Shown here: positions 3,185 through 13,370 of the stretch, piece after piece
Position numbering within the stretch: the stretch's first letter is position 1
How the letters are laid out: each line of letters starts with the position of its first letter
DNA from: Symbiobacterium thermophilum IAM 14863
GTDB lineage: Bacteria > Bacillota > Sulfobacillia > Symbiobacteriales > Symbiobacteriaceae
Direction of reading: 5' to 3'
Assembly (NCBI RefSeq): GCF_000009905.1
Contig: NC_006177.1
Coordinates: 1,302,001 to 1,366,000, forward strand
DNA length: 64,000 nt
Translations under genes and position numbers: made by a program
Notes under the pieces: generated by a model
The model's database searches: none
The model's input: the letters and a program-made list of their open reading frames with translations, nothing else
What the model was told of the DNA's origin: nothing

Positions 3185-3643
3185 GTGGTTGCATTGGCAG
3201 CGAGCGCTCTGCCGCTGGATCCCCTGGCATACGTGCAGACGGCGTCGGTGGTCTCCCACATCCTGCAGACCCGGTGCGACGGTTACCTGAAGCGCACCCA
3301 CGGCCTGAGCTGGCCGGGGTTCACGGTGCTCAGGACGCTGAAGCAGTGCGGGCCGACGTCGGCCAAGCGGCTGACGGCTGCCCTGGCCTGCACCCACAGC
3401 AACATCACCGGCATCGTCGACCGGCTGGAGCGGGACGGATGGGTGAGGCGGACCCGGTCGACCGAGGACCGCCGGGTGATCTACCTCGAGCTCACGGAGA
3501 AGGGCGAGCGGATCGACGAGGTGGAGGAGGGGCTGCATCGGTTCCTGACCCTGTCGCTGGGGCACTGGTTCGGCGAGGCCCACCCGCTGTTCGAGCGGCT
3601 CCAGGCCCTGGAGGCGCGGATGGGCGACGGGCAGGAGGCATGA
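3185..3643 (+). CDS. MarR-family transcriptional regulator (first paralogue)
   Basis: A 152-residue winged-helix regulator. The N-terminal helix is followed by the HTH region (LSWPGFTVLRTLKQCG...ACTHSNITGIVDRLERDGWV) and the beta-wing RRTRSTEDRRVIYLELTEKG, with the DRR signature of the family. GTG 3185 is the annotated start; TTG 3194 is an alternative. It is clearly paralogous to the MarR protein at 5457-5957: both share LSWP.F.VLR and IDRLERDGW. MarR proteins are usually ligand-responsive repressors; no ligand can be inferred. Its position beside surface-protein genes and an ECF-type sigma gene suggests a local regulatory circuit. Confidence 0.88.
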   Translation: MVALAASALPLDPLAYVQTASVVSHILQTRCDGYLKRTHGLSWPGFTVLRTLKQCGPTSAKRLTAALACTHSNITGIVDRLERDGWVRRTRSTEDRRVIYLELTEKGERIDEVEEGLHRFLTLSLGHWFGEAHPLFERLQALEARMGDGQEA

Positions 3644-3822: not shown

Positions 3823-4500
3823 ATGGGACTTCGGTTCGTCTGGTCAAGCCTCCTGTCCGTGATCCTGACCGGCGGGCTGCTCGGCGCCACGACCCTCGCC
3901 CTGTTCACGGACCAGGCGGAGAGCAGCGGGCAGTTCACCGCCTGCACGCTTCCGCTGCGCTGCTCCACCGTGGTCAACACGGAGAGCGCCCTGTTCGGCG
4001 GCTCAGCGCCGGCGAGGATCACGAAAGCCGGCCCGACGGAACACGTGTTGCAGCCGGGTGAGCAGCACGACATCACCATCACGGTCGAACTGCCGAAGGA
4101 AGCCGGCAACGCGTACCAGAACGCCCAGGGCACGTTGACCATCACGTTCTTCGCACCCCAGAGGACGAACATGGAGTGGGTTCCCCTCGGGCCCAAGTTG
4201 AAGGCGGACAACGTTGCTGTCCCCGCGACCGGTCGGGTGTATGACCTGTGCCAGGTGGAACTGACCGGAGGAGAAGTCGTCAACCTGGACAAGGCGAGGG
4301 GGATCTGGATCCAGGTGTGGGATCCGACCCCGAAGTGGAACTGGGCGCCCATCATCGGGGACGATCACAACCTGTGGTCTGACAACGATCTGCCCAGCGG
4401 CGGCTACAACGTCTATATCTTCATGGAGGATGGTACGGTCTACCGGACCCTCACCATTCCCCATACGAGAAACCAGACGAACGAGCGGCGAACCTCCTGA
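3823..4500 (+). CDS. Exported TasA/camelysin-like surface protein
   Basis: A 225-residue protein with an N-terminal hydrophobic segment (FVWSSLLSVILTGGLLG) ending in ATTLALFTD. This is the SipW-processed motif seen in TasA, camelysin and related matrix proteins, and it recurs in four other proteins between 7 and 11.5 kb. The middle part (EHVLQPGEQHDITITVELPKEAGNAYQNAQ) resembles the beta-rich core of those paralogues, which also carry a .AGD.Y(Q/E).. stretch. The C-terminal 90 residues (IWIQVWDPTPKWNWAP...) have no recognisable family and make it longer than typical camelysin. It probably needs the signal peptidase at 8615-9205, although it stands alone 4.8 kb upstream. Confidence 0.72.
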   Translation: MGLRFVWSSLLSVILTGGLLGATTLALFTDQAESSGQFTACTLPLRCSTVVNTESALFGGSAPARITKAGPTEHVLQPGEQHDITITVELPKEAGNAYQNAQGTLTITFFAPQRTNMEWVPLGPKLKADNVAVPATGRVYDLCQVELTGGEVVNLDKARGIWIQVWDPTPKWNWAPIIGDDHNLWSDNDLPSGGYNVYIFMEDGTVYRTLTIPHTRNQTNERRTS

Positions 4501-4580: not shown

Positions 4581-5135
4581 TCATGAGAGGTAACCCTGGT
4601 CGACCCCTACACTGGCCAACTCACGGGAGAGGTACTGCAGGCCGTTGCGCAGCCGGCTCTTCACCGTTCCCAGCGGCAGGTTCAGCTCCTCGGCGATGTC
4701 GCGGTACGAATAGCCGGCCAGGAGCCGCAGGCTGAGCACGGAGTTGTAGTGCTGCGGCAGCCGGTGCAGGGCTTCGCGCAGGGCCTCGACGAAGGCCTTG
4801 CGCTCCAGCTCCGACTCCGGCCCCGGGGTCGGATCCAGCAGGTCCTCGGTCAGCAGGGCGGTGGTCTGGTGCCGCTGGCTGCGCAACACGTCGAGGGCGG
4901 CGTTGCGCGTCACCTTGTACAGCCACGCCCGCAGTTGGCTGGTGGGCTCCAGCGATTCCATGTGGCACCAGGCCTTGTACATGGCGTCCTGGCAGACCTC
5001 CTCGGCAGCGAAGGGGTCGCCCAGGAGGCGGTTGGCGTAGGAAAGGAGGGACCCGCCCATGACCTCCATAAGCCGTCCCAGCTGCTCGTCGTCGCTGAGC
5101 GCGGGCTGTGCCCACATCTCGACGCCTTCGCGCAT
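4581..5135 (-). CDS. ECF-type RNA polymerase sigma factor
   Basis: A 184-residue sigma-70 family protein with only regions 2 and 4, which is ECF size. Region 2 contains LLGDPFAAEEVCQDAMYKAW and LRAWLYKVTRNAALDVLRSQ; region 4 contains LPQHYNSVLSLRLLAGYSYRDIAEELNLPLGTVKSRLRNG. ATG 5135 is preceded by a purine-rich GAAGGG. No anti-sigma gene lies beside it, so its control is unclear. It lies between two MarR paralogues whose promoters share an ECF-like -35/-10 pair, which are good candidate targets. The next gene downstream on the other strand, at 3823-4500, converges with it. Confidence 0.9.
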   Translation of the reverse strand: MREGVEMWAQPALSDDEQLGRLMEVMGGSLLSYANRLLGDPFAAEEVCQDAMYKAWCHMESLEPTSQLRAWLYKVTRNAALDVLRSQRHQTTALLTEDLLDPTPGPESELERKAFVEALREALHRLPQHYNSVLSLRLLAGYSYRDIAEELNLPLGTVKSRLRNGLQYLSRELASVGVDQGYLS

Positions 5136-5456: not shown

Positions 5457-5957
5457 ATGGGGGTGGGTGTCCTGAGCCGGACCGACGTTGCGGCGGTGGA
5501 GCGCATCGCCATGGTGAGGCGGATGGCCAGCAGGCTCGAGCAGCAGTGCGAACGGTACCTGCGCTCGGCCTACGGCCTCAGCTGGCCCCAGTTCCAGGTG
5601 CTCCGGGAGCTGTCGGTGGAGCGCCCGACCATGCTGCAGCGGGTGAACGACGCCGTCTACTGCACCCGCGGCAACCTGGCGGCCATCATCGACCGGCTGG
5701 AGCGGGACGGGTGGCTGGAGCGCTTCCGCCTGCAGGGGGATCGCAGGGTTGTGATGCTGAGCCTCACGGAGAAAGGGGCCCAGGTCACCGCGATCGAGGC
5801 GGAGCTGCGCGCCCGCATCCGGGAGTGGCTGGAACCGGTGTGGCGGGAGGCCCAGGAGATTCAGGAGTACCTGGGCGTTCTGCTCCGGGACATGACCGAT
5901 CCGCTGGCCGCGGAAGAGGCGCTGAAGCCGAAGGAGCGGCTGGTCGCGGCCAGCTGA
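5457..5957 (+). CDS. MarR-family transcriptional regulator (second paralogue)
   Basis: A 166-residue winged-helix protein paralogous to the regulator at 3185-3643. It has LSWPQFQVLRELSVERPTML, then the recognition region NDAVYCTRGNLAAIIDRLERDGW and the wing with GDRRVVMLSLTEKG. The C-terminus (EALKPKERLVAAS) is longer than in its paralogue. ATG 5457 follows GGGAG closely; GTG 5463 or 5466 could also serve. The first gene downstream is convergent and the two are separated by a strong bidirectional hairpin. Ligand and targets are unknown. The shared promoter motif suggests that both MarR genes are under the same sigma factor. Confidence 0.88.
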   Translation: MGVGVLSRTDVAAVERIAMVRRMASRLEQQCERYLRSAYGLSWPQFQVLRELSVERPTMLQRVNDAVYCTRGNLAAIIDRLERDGWLERFRLQGDRRVVMLSLTEKGAQVTAIEAELRARIREWLEPVWREAQEIQEYLGVLLRDMTDPLAAEEALKPKERLVAAS

Positions 5958-5976
5958 CCGGGCGCTGCACAGGCGA

Positions 5977-6011
5977 GAAACGGGCCAGGGCACGGAGCCC
6001 TGGCCCGTTTC
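5977..6011. terminator. Strong hairpin between convergent genes
   Basis: GAAACGGGCCAGGGC (5977-5991) pairs perfectly over 15 bases with 5997-6011 across a 5-base loop. It ends in TTTC on the plus strand and the mirror image on the minus strand. It probably terminates both the MarR gene and the LuxR-type gene. Confidence 0.85.
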
Positions 6012-6026
6012 GCGTCGAGCGGTCTA

Positions 6027-6716
6027 CTAATCAATGTAATCGACGTGTCTGAGGCGTTGAACGGCGAGTTGCACGACGGAAGGGGCCGTCCCCGCCCCCT
6101 CGGCGATGGCTGCGGCGCCCACTGCGGCCCTCATCATCAGCCGTTTCCGCTGGGCCCACCGCTGCACCTTGCGGACCAGCCGGTCGGCCACCTCGACGGC
6201 CGCGGTCCGGTCGCTCCCGGGCAGAAGCAGCAGGTAGAGGTCATCCCGCCAGGGCAGGAGATGGTCACGGCTGCGGATGGACGTGGCCAGCAGGTCGGTG
6301 AGGATGGTGCCGGGCACCCTCGTCGCCAGGCCGGACTGGAAGAACTCCAGGTGGAGGAGGACCACGGTGGCGTTCATGCCCTCAGCCTGGTCCTGATGCA
6401 GGTCGGCGAAAATCCGCTGGAACTCGGCCGGCAGGTCCTCTGCCACCGTTCCGATCCGCGCGGGCGCGCTGGCGGCCTCCATCAGCGCCCGGTACAGCTC
6501 CACCCGGCTGCGCGTTCTGGTCTTGCGGTAGAGGTTGCGCAGGTGCGTCTTGACCGTGTTCTCGGAGATAAAGAGCGCGGCCGCAATCTCCTGGGTGGAG
6601 CGCCCGGAAACCAGCAGACGGCCGACCTCCAGTTCCCGCTGGCTGAGGTGCGCGCCCCAGATCCGCTCCAGGGAGTAGACGGCCACAGATGTCTTCTCGG
6701 CCTCCTGGATGCCCAT
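6027..6716 (-). CDS. LuxR-type HTH protein with C-terminal degenerate GGDEF-like domain
   Basis: A 229-residue protein. Residues 22-80 form a LuxR HTH (LSQRELEVGRLLVSGRSTQEIAAALFISENTVKTHLRNLYRKT). The C-terminal 110 residues read like a diguanylate cyclase fold that has lost catalysis: IRSRDHLLPWRDDLYLLLLPGSD takes the place of the usual R.GGDEF..LLPG.., followed by AVEVADRLVRKVQ and MRAAVGAAAI, and an SVVQLAVQRL end in place of the usual LL..AD.AL. The GGDEF residues are replaced by WRDDLY. The HTH is N-terminal, the reverse of most LuxR receivers. It may sense a nucleotide or partner protein and act on the divergent surface-protein cluster starting at 7056; that is inference. Confidence 0.75.
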   Translation of the reverse strand: MGIQEAEKTSVAVYSLERIWGAHLSQRELEVGRLLVSGRSTQEIAAALFISENTVKTHLRNLYRKTRTRSRVELYRALMEAASAPARIGTVAEDLPAEFQRIFADLHQDQAEGMNATVVLLHLEFFQSGLATRVPGTILTDLLATSIRSRDHLLPWRDDLYLLLLPGSDRTAAVEVADRLVRKVQRWAQRKRLMMRAAVGAAAIAEGAGTAPSVVQLAVQRLRHVDYID

Positions 6717-7055
6717 AATTCTGCACGCTCCTTTGCAGCATGAACAGTACTCCTCAAATTCGCCGAAAAGTCATGGCCTCCTGCTCACCCGGCGCGGGTG
6801 ATGTCCGAAAAGATCGAATTCATCCTCCCAGGTGATCTAACATAAAATATCATGCTTACGAAGTATTCCCCTGGCCGCCGGCGCGTGCGCGTGCCGGCGG
6901 CCTCATGCGCGTAGGACCGCGGCTCTCGCACCATCACTCCCTTAAATGTTCACTTGCCAAGACTGATATGAAGAATCATCCGCGAATTCATGCCCACAGG
7001 TGAGGCGGCCCTGTGCCATAATCGGCGCGACGGGAGGTGATGCCCGCTGCGACGC
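6717..7055. other. Divergent intergenic region before the surface-protein cluster
   Basis: This 339-base gap contains no gene. It holds a perfect 10-bp hairpin, GGCCGCCGGC (6873-6882) with 6893-6902, not followed by a T-run on either strand. TTAAATGTTCAC at 6942-6953 is the reverse complement of the MarR -35 motif but lacks the matching -10. A possible extended -10, TGCCATAAT, at 7014-7022 lies 34 bases before the next start. Confidence 0.5.
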
Positions 7056-8618
7056 ATGACGCGCAAGCGCCGGCTGCGGCAGAAGGCGATGCGGGCCCTG
7101 GGTCGCCAGATCCGGGAGTCCGGCAGCAGGTTGCCCCTGGTGCTGATCCCGGTGACGATGGTGATCTCCAGTCTGGCGGCCGGGCACGTGACCGGGGCGA
7201 CCTTCGCTCTCAACCAGGACGTCGGGCAGGCGCAGAGCATCCAGTTCCAGGCCCTGACCACATCGCAGGTGCTCCGTTTCACCTCGGGCCGGGTCCAGCT
7301 GGTGGAAGATGGCGGGCCGGACCAGGTGGGCTCGGAGGTCGTGCGGGTCTTCCGGATCATGAACATCAGCGACCGGCGCGTGGACCTCTCGGTGGAGCTG
7401 ACCGGCATCCCATGGGCACGGGCAGCACTCTCCCGCAGCGTGCTGGGCCCGGGCGAGACGGCCGAGATCGTGGTCAGCGGCACGCCGGATCAGCCGGGCC
7501 AGTACCAGGGTTACCTGACCGTGTACGGAATGGGCGGCTTCCTGGAGCTGGGCATGGAGTTCACCGTCGTGATCGTCCCGGCGCCGGATCCCTGCCGGCC
7601 CGCCGAATGGCCGGCGCCCGGAGCACGGGGCGGGGAGGCGTCGGGGGATCCGGTCCGGGAGCCTGACCCCGAGGAGACGGAGGAGTCCGAGGCCGTCATC
7701 GGCCTGCATCCCGACCTGCTGGGCCTGCCCGCCGAGGACGCGCCGGAGCCGGCCGCTGCGGAGCCCGACGGTGAACCGGAGGCTCCTGAGGCTGCCGACG
7801 AGGCCGGTCATGAGCCCGGGGAAGGGGCCGGGGAACCGGCGGCCCCCGGTGACGACGGGTCGGCATCCGAGTCAGGCGACGAGGCCGTTCCTTCCGGGGA
7901 CGGCGTGGATGGTGGCGCCGCCGCGCCCCCTGACACGACAGATCCGTGTGCTGACGCTCCCGGCGGCCAGCTGCCCGATCCGGCTCCGGACTGCGGGGTT
8001 CCCGCCGAGGCCGTCGTGGAGGAGGAGGAAGGCGAGCAGGCTGCGGAGCCCGATGACTGCGCCCCCGCTGCAGCTCCTCCCGGCGATGAGGCGGCCGAAC
8101 CCGGCGATGGCGACCAGGACGGCCGCAAGGAAGAGGACGAAGATGCGGCCGGGGAGCCGGTGGAGGACGACGCTGAGGGGACCGGCGATCCGCACGACGA
8201 CGAACTCACCGAGGGTGACACCGCCGGTGAGCCGGAGGACGACGCCGACGACAGTGGGTCTGGCGCTGAGCAGCCCGGCGACGCGGTCGGCGGGACCGAC
8301 GAGGCCGCCGACGACGGGATCGCAGGCGGGGACGGAGATGCCGGTTCCGGTGAGACCGACAGCGACGAGCCCGACAGCGACGGACCCGAAGACGGCGCAC
8401 CCGATGACGGTGACCCGGGCGTTAGCGATGATGCGGACGGCCCAGGCGCCGAGGACGCTGATGCTGACACCGGCGACGCCGACGGCGGCTCGCCTGGCGG
8501 CGAACAGGCCCACGGTGATTCTGCCGGCGATGACGGAGCGGATCCCGACGACACCGGGCAGCCGCTGACCGGGTCGGACGCGGCGGACGACGCCGACGCA
8601 GGGGGGCAGACGACGTGA
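7056..8618 (+). CDS. TasA-like exported protein with very long acidic tail
   Basis: A 520-residue protein. After a basic start, residues 26-47 form a signal/membrane segment ending in VTGATFALNQD, a close variant of the SipW motif GATFALFTD. Residues 50-173 look like a compact beta domain (VFRIMNISDRRVDLSVELTG...LGPGETAEIVVSGTP). From about residue 175 to the end the protein is almost only D, E, G, A, P and T, probably disordered and strongly negative, perhaps calcium-binding. ATG 7056 has its GGGAGGTGA site 15 bases away. A CTG at 7047 is in frame and better spaced, so the true start may be non-standard. Its stop overlaps the signal peptidase start by 4 bases. Confidence 0.7.
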   Translation: MTRKRRLRQKAMRALGRQIRESGSRLPLVLIPVTMVISSLAAGHVTGATFALNQDVGQAQSIQFQALTTSQVLRFTSGRVQLVEDGGPDQVGSEVVRVFRIMNISDRRVDLSVELTGIPWARAALSRSVLGPGETAEIVVSGTPDQPGQYQGYLTVYGMGGFLELGMEFTVVIVPAPDPCRPAEWPAPGARGGEASGDPVREPDPEETEESEAVIGLHPDLLGLPAEDAPEPAAAEPDGEPEAPEAADEAGHEPGEGAGEPAAPGDDGSASESGDEAVPSGDGVDGGAAAPPDTTDPCADAPGGQLPDPAPDCGVPAEAVVEEEEGEQAAEPDDCAPAAAPPGDEAAEPGDGDQDGRKEEDEDAAGEPVEDDAEGTGDPHDDELTEGDTAGEPEDDADDSGSGAEQPGDAVGGTDEAADDGIAGGDGDAGSGETDSDEPDSDGPEDGAPDDGDPGVSDDADGPGAEDADADTGDADGGSPGGEQAHGDSAGDDGADPDDTGQPLTGSDAADDADAGGQTT

Positions 8619-9205
8619 AGATCCTGCTGCGCATCCTCAGTGGAGCCGTGACAGCGGTACTGGCCATCGCCCTGGCGGGGACGGTGCTGTTGGCCCTCGC
8701 CGGGCGCAGGGCGCCCGACCGGATCCCGACGGTTTTCGACTACAAGGTGCTCACCGTGCTGAGCGGCTCCATGGAGCCGGCGATCAGGACCGGTGACGCA
8801 ATCATCGTGGAGCCGCTGAGGCCGGAGCACGAGATCCGGGAAGGCGACGTCATCACCTTCCGGGCGGCAGACGCCCCCGACATGCTGATCACCCACCGGG
8901 TCATCGGCATCGTGTCGGTCAACGGCGAGCCGGCGGCCTACGTGACCAAGGGCGACGCCAACGAGGCGCCTGACCTGGTCCCGGTTCAGCGGTCCCAGAT
9001 CGTCGGCATCCACCGGTGGCGGATTCCGTACTACGGCTACCTCTCGGACTTCATGCACACCAGGGAGGGGATCATCTCCCTCGTGATCGTCCCGGGCGTG
9101 CTGCTGATTGCCCTGGAGGTCCGCAAGATCTTCCAGGTGATCGCCGAGGAGGAGAAGGCCAGGCAGGCCGACGAGAAACCCGCCGACGCCCAGTCCCCCA
9201 GTTAG
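8615..9205 (+). CDS. sipW: SipW-type (ER-like) signal peptidase I
   Basis: A 196-residue membrane protease with N- and C-terminal membrane segments. Catalytic Ser52 lies in SGSMEP, and His94 in THRVIG replaces the lysine of ordinary bacterial signal peptidases. This defines the ER/archaeal/SipW class. GDAIIV and KGDANE boxes are also present. It starts at GTG 8615, overlapping the preceding stop, so it is translationally coupled to the acidic TasA-like gene. In Bacillus SipW processes TasA and TapA for biofilm fibres; here it presumably processes the five exported proteins carrying the ALFTD-type motif. A cytoplasmic charged tail (EEEKARQADEK) ends the protein. Confidence 0.92.
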   Translation: MKILLRILSGAVTAVLAIALAGTVLLALAGRRAPDRIPTVFDYKVLTVLSGSMEPAIRTGDAIIVEPLRPEHEIREGDVITFRAADAPDMLITHRVIGIVSVNGEPAAYVTKGDANEAPDLVPVQRSQIVGIHRWRIPYYGYLSDFMHTREGIISLVIVPGVLLIALEVRKIFQVIAEEEKARQADEKPADAQSPS

Positions 9206-9306: not shown

Positions 9307-9825
9307 ATGAAGAGGATCCTGTTGAGCCTCGCAACCGTGGGTGCCCTGTCTGCTCTGGTTACCGGCGCCACCTTCGCCCTGTTCACCGCCAGCACCGAGA
9401 ACACGAACAACACCTTCACGGCCGGTACCGTCCGGTTCGGCAAGGACTTCAACGCCAGCTGTGATCTGAGCGCCGACAACATCGCGCCCGGCGACTCCGG
9501 CTCCTGCAGCTACACGATCACCTACGTGGGCAGCCTCGAAGCGTTCGTCGGCGTTGAGCACAGCGTCTCCGGCGACCTGTTCTCCGGCGACAACCCGATG
9601 ACCTACACCGTCAACGGCAAGAGCGACAGCGGCACCATCCTGCTGGGCAAGGCCAGCAACGGCGATACCGTGACCGCCGACGTCCAGTGGTCCTTCCCGC
9701 TCGCGGCGGGCGACGAGTACGAGGGCAAGAGCGGCACCATCAGCCTGACGTTCAAGGCGGTCCAGGTCCGCAACAACGAGGACGCCTCCGGGAACCCCAT
9801 CTCCTGGAATGAGGACGGGACCTAG
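9307..9825 (+). CDS. TasA/camelysin-like matrix protein (short form)
   Basis: A 172-residue protein of normal camelysin size. The signal segment LLSLATVGALSALV is followed by TGATFALFTASTENTNNTFTAGTV, the standard SipW-substrate N-terminus. The rest is a beta-rich domain with a pair of cysteines (NASCDLS...GSCSYTITYVG), ending PLAAGDEYEGKSGTISLTFKAVQVRNNE, a segment repeated in its neighbours. Start ATG 9307 follows GGAGGGTGA. It lies 101 bases after the signal peptidase and is the most typical family member here, so it is the best candidate for the main fibre subunit. Confidence 0.83.
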   Translation: MKRILLSLATVGALSALVTGATFALFTASTENTNNTFTAGTVRFGKDFNASCDLSADNIAPGDSGSCSYTITYVGSLEAFVGVEHSVSGDLFSGDNPMTYTVNGKSDSGTILLGKASNGDTVTADVQWSFPLAAGDEYEGKSGTISLTFKAVQVRNNEDASGNPISWNEDGT

Positions 9826-9870
9826 TCGAACCCGCGCCGTGAGCTGACACCGGAACACCAAGATGACGGA

Positions 9871-9904
9871 ACGCCCGCCGGGATCCACCGGTCCCGGCGG
9901 GCGT
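9871..9904 (+). terminator. Perfect 13-bp hairpin between two TasA-like genes
   Basis: ACGCCCGCCGGGA (9871-9883) pairs with 9892-9904 across an 8-base loop. No T-run follows (GGATTA), so it may attenuate transcription or stabilise mRNA, reducing expression of downstream genes relative to the gene at 9307. Confidence 0.55.
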
Positions 9905-9922
9905 GGATTAGGAGGTAACCCC

Positions 9923-10558
9923 ATGAGCAAGAAGACTCTGATGGTGCTGGGGTCAGCCGTGGCGATCTCCGCGCTTTCCATCGGCGGGACCCTGGCCCTG
10001 TTCACGGACGCGACGGACGCTTCCAAGGACTTCGTCGCCGGGACGCTCTGCCTCCGGTCCGACCGGAACGACGGCGACCCGGTCCCCGGCCCGATGTTCT
10101 ACATCACGCCGGAACAGGGCAAGACCCCGTCCGGCCAGCTCGGGATCAACGCCACCGGTCCCTGGGCCCCCGGCGACTCCCACACGCGGACCCTCACGGT
10201 CTATAACTCGCCTGACTGCAGCAGCATGGACGCCTGGCTCGTCAGCGTTGAGGCACGGCTGACGGAGGGCATCGAGGACCAGTACGAGCCGATGGCCGAG
10301 AAGTTGCACGTGAAGGTCAAGACGCCGAAGCGCGGCGGGCCTGACGAGGTGGTGGCCGAGGCGCCGCTCAGCGACTTCCTGGCGGGTCCCGTCTCCATCG
10401 CTTATCCTGACGGGACCAAGATTCCGCTTCACCTCACGAGCAACCGGCACATGAAGTTCGAGGTTACCTTTGACAAGGCCGCCGGAAACGACTACCAGGA
10501 CAAGACCCTGGTGGTGGACTTCATCGTGCACGCCGAGCAGATGAAGAACAACCCGTAA
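9923..10558 (+). CDS. TasA/camelysin-like exported protein
   Basis: A 211-residue protein starting at ATG 9923, with a very strong GGAGGT site 7 bases upstream; an upstream in-frame codon at 9863 is not used because it lies before a hairpin. The signal segment VLGSAVAISALSIG ends in GTLALFTDATDASKDFVAGTLC. It shares PGPMFYI, GPWAPGDSHTRTL and AAGNDYQDK...VDFIVHAEQMKNN with the protein at 10845-11471 (there RGPMFYI, GLWAPGDAHHRGF and HAEQLRNN at the end), so these two are close paralogues. It is probably exported and SipW-processed, and assembled outside the cell. Confidence 0.8.
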   Translation: MSKKTLMVLGSAVAISALSIGGTLALFTDATDASKDFVAGTLCLRSDRNDGDPVPGPMFYITPEQGKTPSGQLGINATGPWAPGDSHTRTLTVYNSPDCSSMDAWLVSVEARLTEGIEDQYEPMAEKLHVKVKTPKRGGPDEVVAEAPLSDFLAGPVSIAYPDGTKIPLHLTSNRHMKFEVTFDKAAGNDYQDKTLVVDFIVHAEQMKNNP

Positions 10559-10844: not shown

Positions 10845-11471
10845 GTGATTCGCACATGGGTGATGGCGGCCGCACTTGTCCTGGTCACGGCGCTTGCCGG
10901 CGTGGGCGTCACCTTTGCCCTCTTCACCGACAGCCGGGAGGGCGGCAGCCATGAACTGGTGGCCGGCACGGTGAGAATCGATGGTGAACGGGTGAACGAC
11001 ACGGTCCGGGGGCCCATGTTCTACATCGACGGCGCGTCGGACGGTGTGACCCACGACGGGCAGGAAGGGCTGCTTCCGACCGGCCTCTGGGCCCCGGGTG
11101 ACGCGCACCACCGCGGCTTCCAGATCGAGAACGTCGGCACCCTGGATGTGAAGCTGACGGGCATGACGGCGGAGCTTAAAGCGGGCGACGAGGTCCTCGC
11201 CGGCGCGCTGGACGTGAAGATCTACGACGACCTGTACCTGGACGAGGACGGCCACGTGCTTAACCCCGAGGCAACCCTGATCTACTCGGGCAAGCTGGCC
11301 GAGTTCCTCGGCAGCGGCATGTCGTTCCCCACGCCCATCGAGCTGGCTCCGGGCGACCTGGCGTCGATCGGAATCCTGGTCTCCTTCCCGCTGGATGCGG
11401 GTGACGCGTACCAGGGCACGACGATCAAGGTTACCTTCAGCGCCCACGCCGAGCAGCTCCGGAACAACTAA
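10845..11471 (+). CDS. TasA/camelysin-like exported protein
   Basis: A 208-residue protein from GTG 10845, preceded by GGAGGGG. The hydrophobic N-terminus (VMAAALVLVTALAGVG) ends in VTFALFTDSREGGSHELVAGTV. It is closely related to the protein at 9923-10558 through RGPMFYIDG, GLWAPGDAHHRGF and the same HAEQLRNN ending. The C-terminal part LSF-type strands (ILVSFPLDAGDAYQGTTIKVTFSAHAEQ) is the conserved family core. It is 21 bases upstream of the large secreted protein at 11493, so the two are probably expressed together. Confidence 0.8.
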   Translation: MIRTWVMAAALVLVTALAGVGVTFALFTDSREGGSHELVAGTVRIDGERVNDTVRGPMFYIDGASDGVTHDGQEGLLPTGLWAPGDAHHRGFQIENVGTLDVKLTGMTAELKAGDEVLAGALDVKIYDDLYLDEDGHVLNPEATLIYSGKLAEFLGSGMSFPTPIELAPGDLASIGILVSFPLDAGDAYQGTTIKVTFSAHAEQLRNN

Positions 11472-11492: not shown

Positions 11493-13370
11493 ATGGCGCG
11501 TCTGTTGCGCAAGCTCACCGCCTGGCTGGTTTCCGGGGCGCTGGTCGTGGGGACGACCTTCTCGTTCGCCCCCCTTGCTGCGGCGCAGGAGCCGCTTCCG
11601 CCGGGGCTTGAGGACCTGGAGGTTCCGGGCCCGCTGCCGCCCGGGCAGCCGTCGGATCGCACGGGCACGGAGAAGTCTCCGGAGAGCGGCCTCCGCGCGA
11701 TGGCCAGCGGCCTTACCGTCTCGCCGATGACCAGCGCCGAGGATCTCGCGCGGGCCCTGGTTGGCTCCGGCATCACCATCACGGGTGTTTCCTACAAGGG
11801 CATGGACGCCGCATTCGGGTCCTTCAGCGGCGGGGAAGACATCATCGGCTTTGACGAGGGCATCGTCCTCAGCACCGGCAAAGCGGTCGACGTGAAGGGC
11901 CCGAACCAGCACCCCGACACCACGACCAACTGGTGCTACCATTCGTTCTTCCTCGGCTGCCTGGACTGGCTGCTCGGCGACTACAGCGGTGACAGGGACC
12001 TCGACAAGTTGGTGCCGGATCGCACCGAGGACGCCGCCGTGCTGACGATCCACTTCATTCCTGAGAACGACGTGATCTCGTTCCAGTACGTCTTCTCCTC
12101 GGAGGAGTACAACGAGTGGGTTGGTAAGAAGTACAACGACGTCTTCGCCTTCTTCGTCAACGGCCAGAACGTCGCGACCATTCCCGGGTCCGACGACTTC
12201 GTGTCCATCAACAACGTGAACCTGAACAAGAACAGGGCCTACTACATCAACAACGCCGACGGCCACCTGAACGTCGAGATGGACGGGCTGACCGTGGTCC
12301 TGTCCATCCAGGCCAGCGTCGCTCCGGGTCAGGCGAACACGCTGAAGCTGGCCATCGCGGACGTGGCCGACGGCCTGTACGACTCGGCGGTGTTCATCAA
12401 GGCTGGCAGTTTCGTGGATCAGCCCGCGGACACCGATGAAGACGGCGTGCCGGATGACGCGGACAACTGCCCGCTGACGCCGAACCCGGGCCAGGAGGAC
12501 AGCGACGGGGACGGCATCGGCGACGCCTGCGATGAGGACGACGACAACGACGGCGTGCCGGATGACGCGGACAACTGCCCGCTGACGCCGAACCCGGGCC
12601 AGGAGGACAACGACGGGGACGGCATCGGGGACGCCTGCGATGAGGACGACGACAACGACGGCGTGCCGGATGACGCGGACAACTGCCCGCTGACGCCGAA
12701 CCCGGGCCAGGAGGACAGCGACGGTGACGGCATCGGCGACGCCTGCGATGAGGACTACGCGCCGCCCCACTGGCCTGAGGATGCCGACCTGTACATCGTC
12801 GAACTCTGCGGTGTCGTGACGCTCTCGTGGGATCCGGCCTCCGGCCAGAATCTGACCTACTTCGTCTACGTCAACGGCGACGTCTACGCTGAGACCACCG
12901 AGACCTCGGTGGATCTGACGGGCCTGACCCCGAGCACCAGCTATACGATTGCGGTGCGGGCCCGCGACGGCGGAGGCGCCTGGGCCGAGGGCGGCCCCGA
13001 GAAGACCTACACCACGAACCCGCCTGACGCGGGCGGCCTGGGGGTGACGTGGATCAAGCCGCAGCCGGGTGACACCGCCGTGGCTGGCGAGGTCTACGTG
13101 ATCCAGTTCCGCTGGGGCGACTGCTCGGGCAACCTGTTCGACCGGACCGTTGCCGTGCGGGTGCGGGATGGTGCTACGAATGCCCTCGTCGCGGGGTTCG
13201 GTTACGGCAATCCCATCCGCTACGAGGATGGCATCTACGTGCTACCGTTGGACACTGCCCAGTTTGCGGCGATGCGCAACGGCGGGATCTTCAAGATCAT
13301 GGTGTACTTTGGGAGCAAGCTGCGCAGCACCACCGAGCTGGTGATCCTGTCGAGCGGCTCCGCCGAGTAG
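11493..13370 (+). CDS. Secreted choice-of-anchor-L protein with TSP3 and FN3-like repeats
   Basis: A 625-residue secreted protein. The Sec signal peptide ends near LAAAQ (residue 31), unlike the SipW-type signals before it. Residues 75-305 form a choice-of-anchor-L domain ([59 protein letters not shown]). Residues 317-424 hold three thrombospondin type-3 repeats with D-rich DxDxDG loops that bind calcium. An FN3-like domain follows ([21 protein letters not shown]...[18 protein letters not shown]), then a beta-rich C-terminal domain ([25 protein letters not shown]). No LPXTG or membrane anchor is visible. Probably an adhesive or calcium-dependent matrix protein. Confidence 0.8.
12441..12764 (+). 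repeat. Three tandem 108-bp coding repeats
   Basis: Units start at 12441, 12549 and 12657 with a period of exactly 108 bases (36 residues). They are nearly identical at the DNA level, with only a handful of synonymous or S/N changes, which suggests recent duplication or homogenisation. Each encodes one TSP3 unit ([20 protein letters not shown]). Confidence 0.95.

Follow-up and report, generated by a model that had tools for sequence, protein, structure and literature searches.

A LuxR-type regulator with a degenerate GGDEF domain that keeps I-site residues lies divergent to SipW/TasA-type matrix genes in Symbiobacterium thermophilum

The open reading frame at 6027-6716 (minus strand) of the 64,000-nucleotide stretch of Symbiobacterium thermophilum IAM 14863 DNA analysed here (the window) encodes a 229-aa protein in which a LuxR-type helix-turn-helix (HTH) is joined to a GGDEF-derived domain that has lost the active site of a diguanylate cyclase and has kept the three residues of the c-di-GMP-binding I-site. 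We propose, with about as much belief as doubt, that this protein is a transcription factor of the one-component type. Its sensor would be a GGDEF domain that has lost catalysis and become a c-di-GMP receptor, and would control the LuxR HTH and the neighbouring matrix operon.

Results

The window corresponds to positions 1,302,001-1,366,000 of a genome that consists of one contig of 3,566,135 bases. The start codon of the regulator gene, read from the sequence, is the ATG at 6716, and a Shine-Dalgarno motif, AAAGGAG, can be read directly at 6728-6734 on the same strand; orthologues in the genus add support to the open reading frame. The LuxR/GerE HTH occupies residues 23-76 (6489-6650, minus strand; PF00196, E = 1e-18; AlphaFold2 block pLDDT 86-97). 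This domain is present in all 7 members of the family described below, and its top PDB match is VpsT (3kln). It is followed by the degenerate GGDEF domain at residues 94-225 (6042-6437, minus strand). A sequence-only reading of this DNA had pointed out the fusion of a LuxR HTH to a GGDEF-like domain, and both halves are borne out, the first by PF00196 and the second by Pfam and profile-profile comparisons. A Pfam search gave no EAL domain in the 229 aa. PucR/CdaR proteins have their HTH_30 at the C-terminus, after GGDEF_2; ORF 6027-6716 is unlike them in that its HTH is of the GerE type and N-terminal, preceding the GGDEF-like domain, and no PucR domain is present.

Searches covered 61 related genomes and 154 genomes of the class, in the latter with no more than 18 candidates scored for each genome. 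Full-length relatives were found in only 4 of the 154 class genomes: the genome of the window itself (G000), two others of the same genus (G002 and G001) and one of a sister genus in the same family (G003). Any match at all was seen in 21 of the 154, the other 17 being matched solely at or close to the HTH. Among 398 genomes drawn evenly from the phylum, with scoring limited to 7 candidates in each, nothing beyond G000 reached E ≤ 1e-22. Genome contigs were also scanned, taking the best 80 of 544 relatives, and an HTH and a GGDEF domain within 400 residues occurred only in the G000-G003 members (open reading frames of at least 100 codons, 176 loci). The earlier remark that such a fusion is unusual agrees with this distribution.

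In the genus, the orthologues that stand divergent to matrix genes share 80% and 59% identity with the window protein. Each of the three genus genomes has two members, the matrix-linked one and a diverged one that is about 28-30% identical to the window protein and adjoins spoVR-yhbH-prkA. The second G000 copy (257 aa; L031:4866-5639, C1:1299866-1300639) lies just upstream of the window, convergent with spoVR and beside yhbH-prkA, and reads RWSEDQF at the signature; such a second LuxR HTH plus pseudo-GGDEF copy is seen in all three genus genomes, with the I-site partly lost in two. The sister-genus member (L035:2405-4468) has 687 aa, with a hydrophobic N-terminal half, then the HTH, then the pseudo-GGDEF domain. 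Judged by eye, its N-terminal half is probably membrane-spanning, and this long form resembles the membrane LuxR regulators of other class genomes (L040 and L042). A shared origin with membrane-LuxR regulators of matrix clusters was considered; among 17 LuxR-matching regions outside the family, SipW/TasA-like genes were near just one (L187).

Evidence that the C-terminal half derives from GGDEF came from several comparisons. In the window protein alone, residues 139-223 matched PF00990 (GGDEF) with E = 6.1e-4, at 20.0 bits against a curated cut-off of 23.8 bits, and weakly matched PF17853 (GGDEF_2; E = 8.8e-4). PF00990 was matched by each of the 7 family members with an E of 0.1 or lower (3.8e-12 for the strongest). 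In a profile-profile comparison, the C-terminal halves of the 7 members aligned with 26 GG[DE]EF domains over 139 columns (probability 99.1, E = 1.7e-18, score 113.4), compared to a top score of 19.3 in 100 column shuffles; the window protein by itself scored 55.2. This test is partly selected, because many of the 26 domains were chosen for matching the same profile, a selection of which the Pfam matches are free. A profile search of PDB sequences led to diguanylate cyclases (6d9m, 8.3e-7; SiaD, 5e-5; DosC, 7.4e-5; PleD, about 0.002), with 14 sequences at E ≤ 0.01, including one putative disulfide isomerase at 0.01.

Structure prediction against diguanylate cyclases, the check put forward with the sequence-only reading, gave a divided answer. 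From a 7-row alignment without GGDEF rows, AlphaFold2 modelled the HTH well and left the C-terminal half unpredicted (block-mean pLDDT 39 to 68). From a 9-row alignment that included 7 GGDEF rows, the pLDDT was 85.9, the best Foldseek matches were GGDEF domains (1.5e-5), and the comparison with PleD (9g86) gave a VIA Z of 14.6 and an rmsd of 2.6 over 131 residues; this model is a compatibility test and not independent proof, because the 7 GGDEF rows are part of its alignment. Together, the sequence comparisons indicate that the C-terminal domain of ORF 6027-6716 is homologous to GGDEF.

Active-site and I-site residues were scored in the alignment of the 7 members with the 26 GGDEF domains, using the PleD residues as listed in the available text of PMC12943098 and PMC7288161. 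The residues W156-Y161, WRDDLY (6234-6251, minus strand), stand where (Y)GGDEF is expected, and the same columns fall on GGDEF in the profile-profile alignment. The loss of the signature noted earlier is therefore upheld, while the exact motif needs correction from WRDDLY to RDDLY, since W156 aligns to the Y that precedes the signature. Six residues in PleD numbering (D327, N335, G368, G369, E371, and K442) are gone in 7 of 7 members, and with them the GG(D/E)EF motif plus D327, N335, and K442 required of an active diguanylate cyclase; the E370 position is an aspartate in 3 of 7. At D344, where the alignment is gappy, three of the four matrix-linked members have lost the residue and the three diverged copies have it. 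By these alignments the active site is wholly lost and the product of ORF 6027-6716 almost certainly does not synthesize c-di-GMP, as the sequence-only reading had anticipated; catalytic and GTP-binding positions are both among the losses.

That reading had also raised nucleotide sensing, which finds only indirect support, and at a site other than the one considered there. The active site, where GTP binds, is gone; the I-site, at which GGDEF domains bind c-di-GMP, is intact in its three scored residues. Another possibility is that the ligand is not c-di-GMP but some other nucleotide, GTP or (p)ppGpp for example. PMC7288161 describes GTP sensing by a degenerate GGDEF domain, and PDB entries 9g85 and 9g86 are given as PleD with c-di-GMP and (p)ppGpp, yet we regard this alternative as improbable, because N335 and K442, two residues that bind GTP, are missing from all 7 members and D344, in a stretch with alignment gaps, from 3 of 4 matrix-linked ones.

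The I-site of GGDEF domains consists of an RxxD motif and a distant Arg (R359, D362, and R390 in PleD) and binds the product c-di-GMP, according to PMC7288161 and PMC12943098. Our scoring covers these three residues; a fourth, PleD R313, comes from the partner domain. The equivalents in the window protein are R148, D151, and R179, and each of the 4 matrix-linked members has the full set. The RxxD, R148-S-R-D151 (6264-6275, minus strand), lies exactly five residues ahead of the signature position in all four, which together with the R390 equivalent is the sequence pattern of PopA/PelD-type receptors. The third residue, R179 (6180-6182, minus strand), is kept in all 7 members; among the three diverged copies, R359 is kept in two, D362 in two, and R390 in three. 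The sister-genus member carries most weight because the other three matrix-linked members are closely related, and it keeps all three residues at an overall identity of 36%. In the alignment, 37 columns show conservation in 75% or more of the 26 GGDEF domains. The four matrix-linked members all keep 8 of these, a set that takes in the three I-site columns (chance of this in a random draw, 0.007) and five others.

In three genus pairs, dN/dS was 0.21, 0.34, and 0.46 for the C-terminal domain and 0.03, 0.16, and 0.08 for the HTH. The C-terminal domain, the faster-evolving half of the regulator, is thus constrained but less so than the HTH.

The main alternative to a c-di-GMP receptor is that the pseudo-GGDEF domain serves as a ligand-free dimerisation domain, with the regulator working through its abundance or through autoregulation. 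PucR/CdaR-type factors with GGDEF_2 similarly combine a transcription factor with a GGDEF-like domain, for which the available text of PMC7652997 reports no function; moreover, the active site is wholly gone and the diverged copies are partly without I-site residues. Structure or ancestry could also explain why the I-site columns are kept. Nevertheless, the retention of the three I-site residues in all four matrix-linked members, when most other conserved GGDEF columns have changed, argues for ligand binding, and we consider the dimerisation alternative possible though unlikely.

The gene divergent from the regulator (7056-8618, plus strand) encodes a product with a conserved N-terminal part of 175 aa and an acidic low-complexity tail, for which no Pfam or NCBIfam family was matched; its linkage makes it a likely regulated gene. 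It is followed by a SipW-type signal peptidase (8615-9205, plus strand; NCBIfam SipW, E = 8.2e-43, below the model cut-off; TIGR02228, 3.1e-34) and by three TasA/CalY-like SipW-dependent proteins on the plus strand, at 9307-9825 (PF12389, 7.4e-8; TIGR04088), 9863-10558 (PF12389, 2.4e-7; TIGR04088), and 10845-11471 (PF12389, 2.8e-5; TIGR04088 at 17.3 bits, below cut-off). SipW comes after the 7056 gene in G000, G001, and G003, in the last of which it is cut by the contig end; the G002 contig ends earlier.

Downstream of the TasA-like genes, a large secreted protein (11493-13370) carries near-identical DxDxDG-type repeats that by eye look thrombospondin-type-3-like. On the other side of the regulator, two MarR-family regulators (3185-3643 and 5457-5957), about 38-40% identical to each other, enclose an ECF sigma factor (4581-5135, minus strand) and a SipW-dependent protein (3823-4500), giving a cluster of regulators packed closely beside the matrix genes.

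The divergent position of the regulator relative to the matrix cluster, already remarked on in the sequence-only reading, proved to be conserved in 4 of 4 genomes, the sister genus included. Within the genus this synteny alone is weak, because a wider block (prkA, MarR, and ECF sigma) is likewise conserved there, and it could be argued that the regulator acts on something besides the matrix operon and that the linkage is an inherited neighbourhood. We judge this very improbable, given that the divergent pair holds in the sister genus as well and that, of the 154 class genomes, the same 4 hold both genes, the full-length matches to the N-terminal part of the 7056 product being in these. One further genome (G119) gave a partial match to this product (97-167), and G004, a genome of the same family, has neither the regulator nor the 7056 gene.

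The shared intergenic region, 6717-7055, contains several candidate operators. A perfect dyad, TCACCCG-GCG-CGGGTGA, lies at 6785-6801 and is identical in G002. Two copies of GAATTCAtnCnnnCAGGTGA are also present, copy 1 (GAATTCATCCTCCCAGGTGA) at 6816-6835 and copy 2 (GAATTCATGCCCACAGGTGA) at 6984-7003; the exact pattern occurs only twice in the G000 genome. The spacing between the copies is 168 bp in G000 and G002 and 167 in G001, which carries a third copy between them. Intergenic matches to TCACCC-N4-GGGTGA with up to 3 mismatches numbered 2, 2, 4, and 3 in G000, G002, G001, and G003, counts that were reached 6, 3, 0, and 0 times in 500 dinucleotide shuffles. A sigma-70 promoter scan of 5900-7100 found none, and no known c-di-GMP riboswitch appears in the window, as Rfam gave none at gathering scores. 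These dyads could belong to another regulator, for example the MarR protein at 5457-5957.

Across G000, GAATTCAYNCNNNMAGGTGA with up to 2 mismatches was found in 4 places: the two intergenic copies, upstream of a secreted subtilase, and one other. A perfect dyad TTCACCC-ATGC-GGGTGA is seen 5' of the secreted subtilase-like gene in G000 (L205/L216; C1:848005) and in G002 (L207; C154:11485), which makes it another candidate target of the regulator. Five orthologous response regulators with a similar HTH have a TCACCC-N4-GGGTGA-like dyad nearby (3 exact, 2 with one mismatch). Three of the five dyads, in G000, G002, and G001, sit inside long hairpins (97-base stretches, -52.8 to -62.1 kcal/mol) that may be terminators; for this reason the response-regulator dyads were downgraded from strong to weak support for an operator. 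Among four further loci checked for the dyad, L234 and L235 had none, L236 had one match with one mismatch, and L237 had four.

Discussion

LuxR HTHs generally bind a dyad as a dimer. At the I-site, c-di-GMP is described in PMC7288161 as a dimer that crosslinks two GGDEF domains. Because the I-site ligand crosslinks domains and LuxR HTHs bind dyads as dimers, binding of c-di-GMP would be expected to switch both the dimer state and the DNA binding of the regulator. We infer the following sequence of events for the product of ORF 6027-6716. The true diguanylate cyclases of the cell would supply c-di-GMP, which on binding to the kept I-site (R148, D151, and R179) would crosslink two pseudo-GGDEF domains and thereby set how the LuxR HTH dimerises. 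This DNA-binding domain would in turn recognise TCAYCC-N4-rGGTGA dyads within 6717-7055, from where the regulator would control, by activation or repression, both its own gene and the 7056-SipW-TasA operon that diverges from it. The messenger is probably present in the host, since the G000 genome has 7 strong GGDEF, 3 EAL, and 1 PilZ profile matches. Control of matrix expression by the regulator is suggested by the linkage and by the dyads in the shared promoter region.

Known systems provide precedents for each part. PdeL (YahA) of Escherichia coli likewise has an N-terminal LuxR-like HTH joined to a c-di-GMP-turnover domain, and its binding site is an imperfect palindrome upstream of its own gene (PMC5052742). 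PdeL is a case in which such a domain governs an N-terminal LuxR HTH, although the domain there is an active EAL phosphodiesterase and not a dead GGDEF domain with an I-site. PopA of Caulobacter and PelD of Pseudomonas share with our protein a degenerate GGDEF domain and an I-site. PopA, which binds c-di-GMP at the RxxD of its I-site, is the precedent for an I-site-only GGDEF receptor (PMC12564702), and PelD is classed under I-site receptors (PMC7288161). However, PopA steers proteolysis and PelD exopolysaccharide synthesis, and neither is described as DNA-binding in the available text of PMC12564702 and PMC7288161. Regulators of the VpsT/CsgD type use a LuxR-type HTH to control biofilm matrix, VpsT with c-di-GMP (PMC3359988). 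VpsT differs in having a REC-type domain (PMC7288161) and a C-terminal HTH (158-209 of 225), in contrast to the N-terminal HTH and GGDEF-derived sensor of ORF 6027-6716.

Receptors based on a degenerate GGDEF domain are thus known, as are c-di-GMP regulators of the LuxR type; it is their combination that is new. Searches of the open-licence literature found no description of a LuxR HTH and a dead-GGDEF sensor joined in a DNA-binding protein, nor did such a search on TasA/SipW in Symbiobacterium give one of this combination. More tentatively, and with slightly less confidence than in the receptor reading itself, we suggest a lineage-specific class of c-di-GMP-responsive factors in which an N-terminal LuxR HTH and a dead GGDEF domain keeping only its I-site would directly couple c-di-GMP to a SipW/TasA-type operon in Gram-positive-related bacteria. 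The class would comprise a short soluble form in the genus, a long form with a hydrophobic N-terminus in the sister genus, and a second, partly I-site-less copy beside spoVR-yhbH-prkA.

The regulator beside these biofilm-matrix genes may therefore be a messenger-sensing switch for them. If true, it would provide a direct link from c-di-GMP to a TasA-type matrix, and would illustrate clearly how an enzyme domain can be pared down to the site that binds its product.
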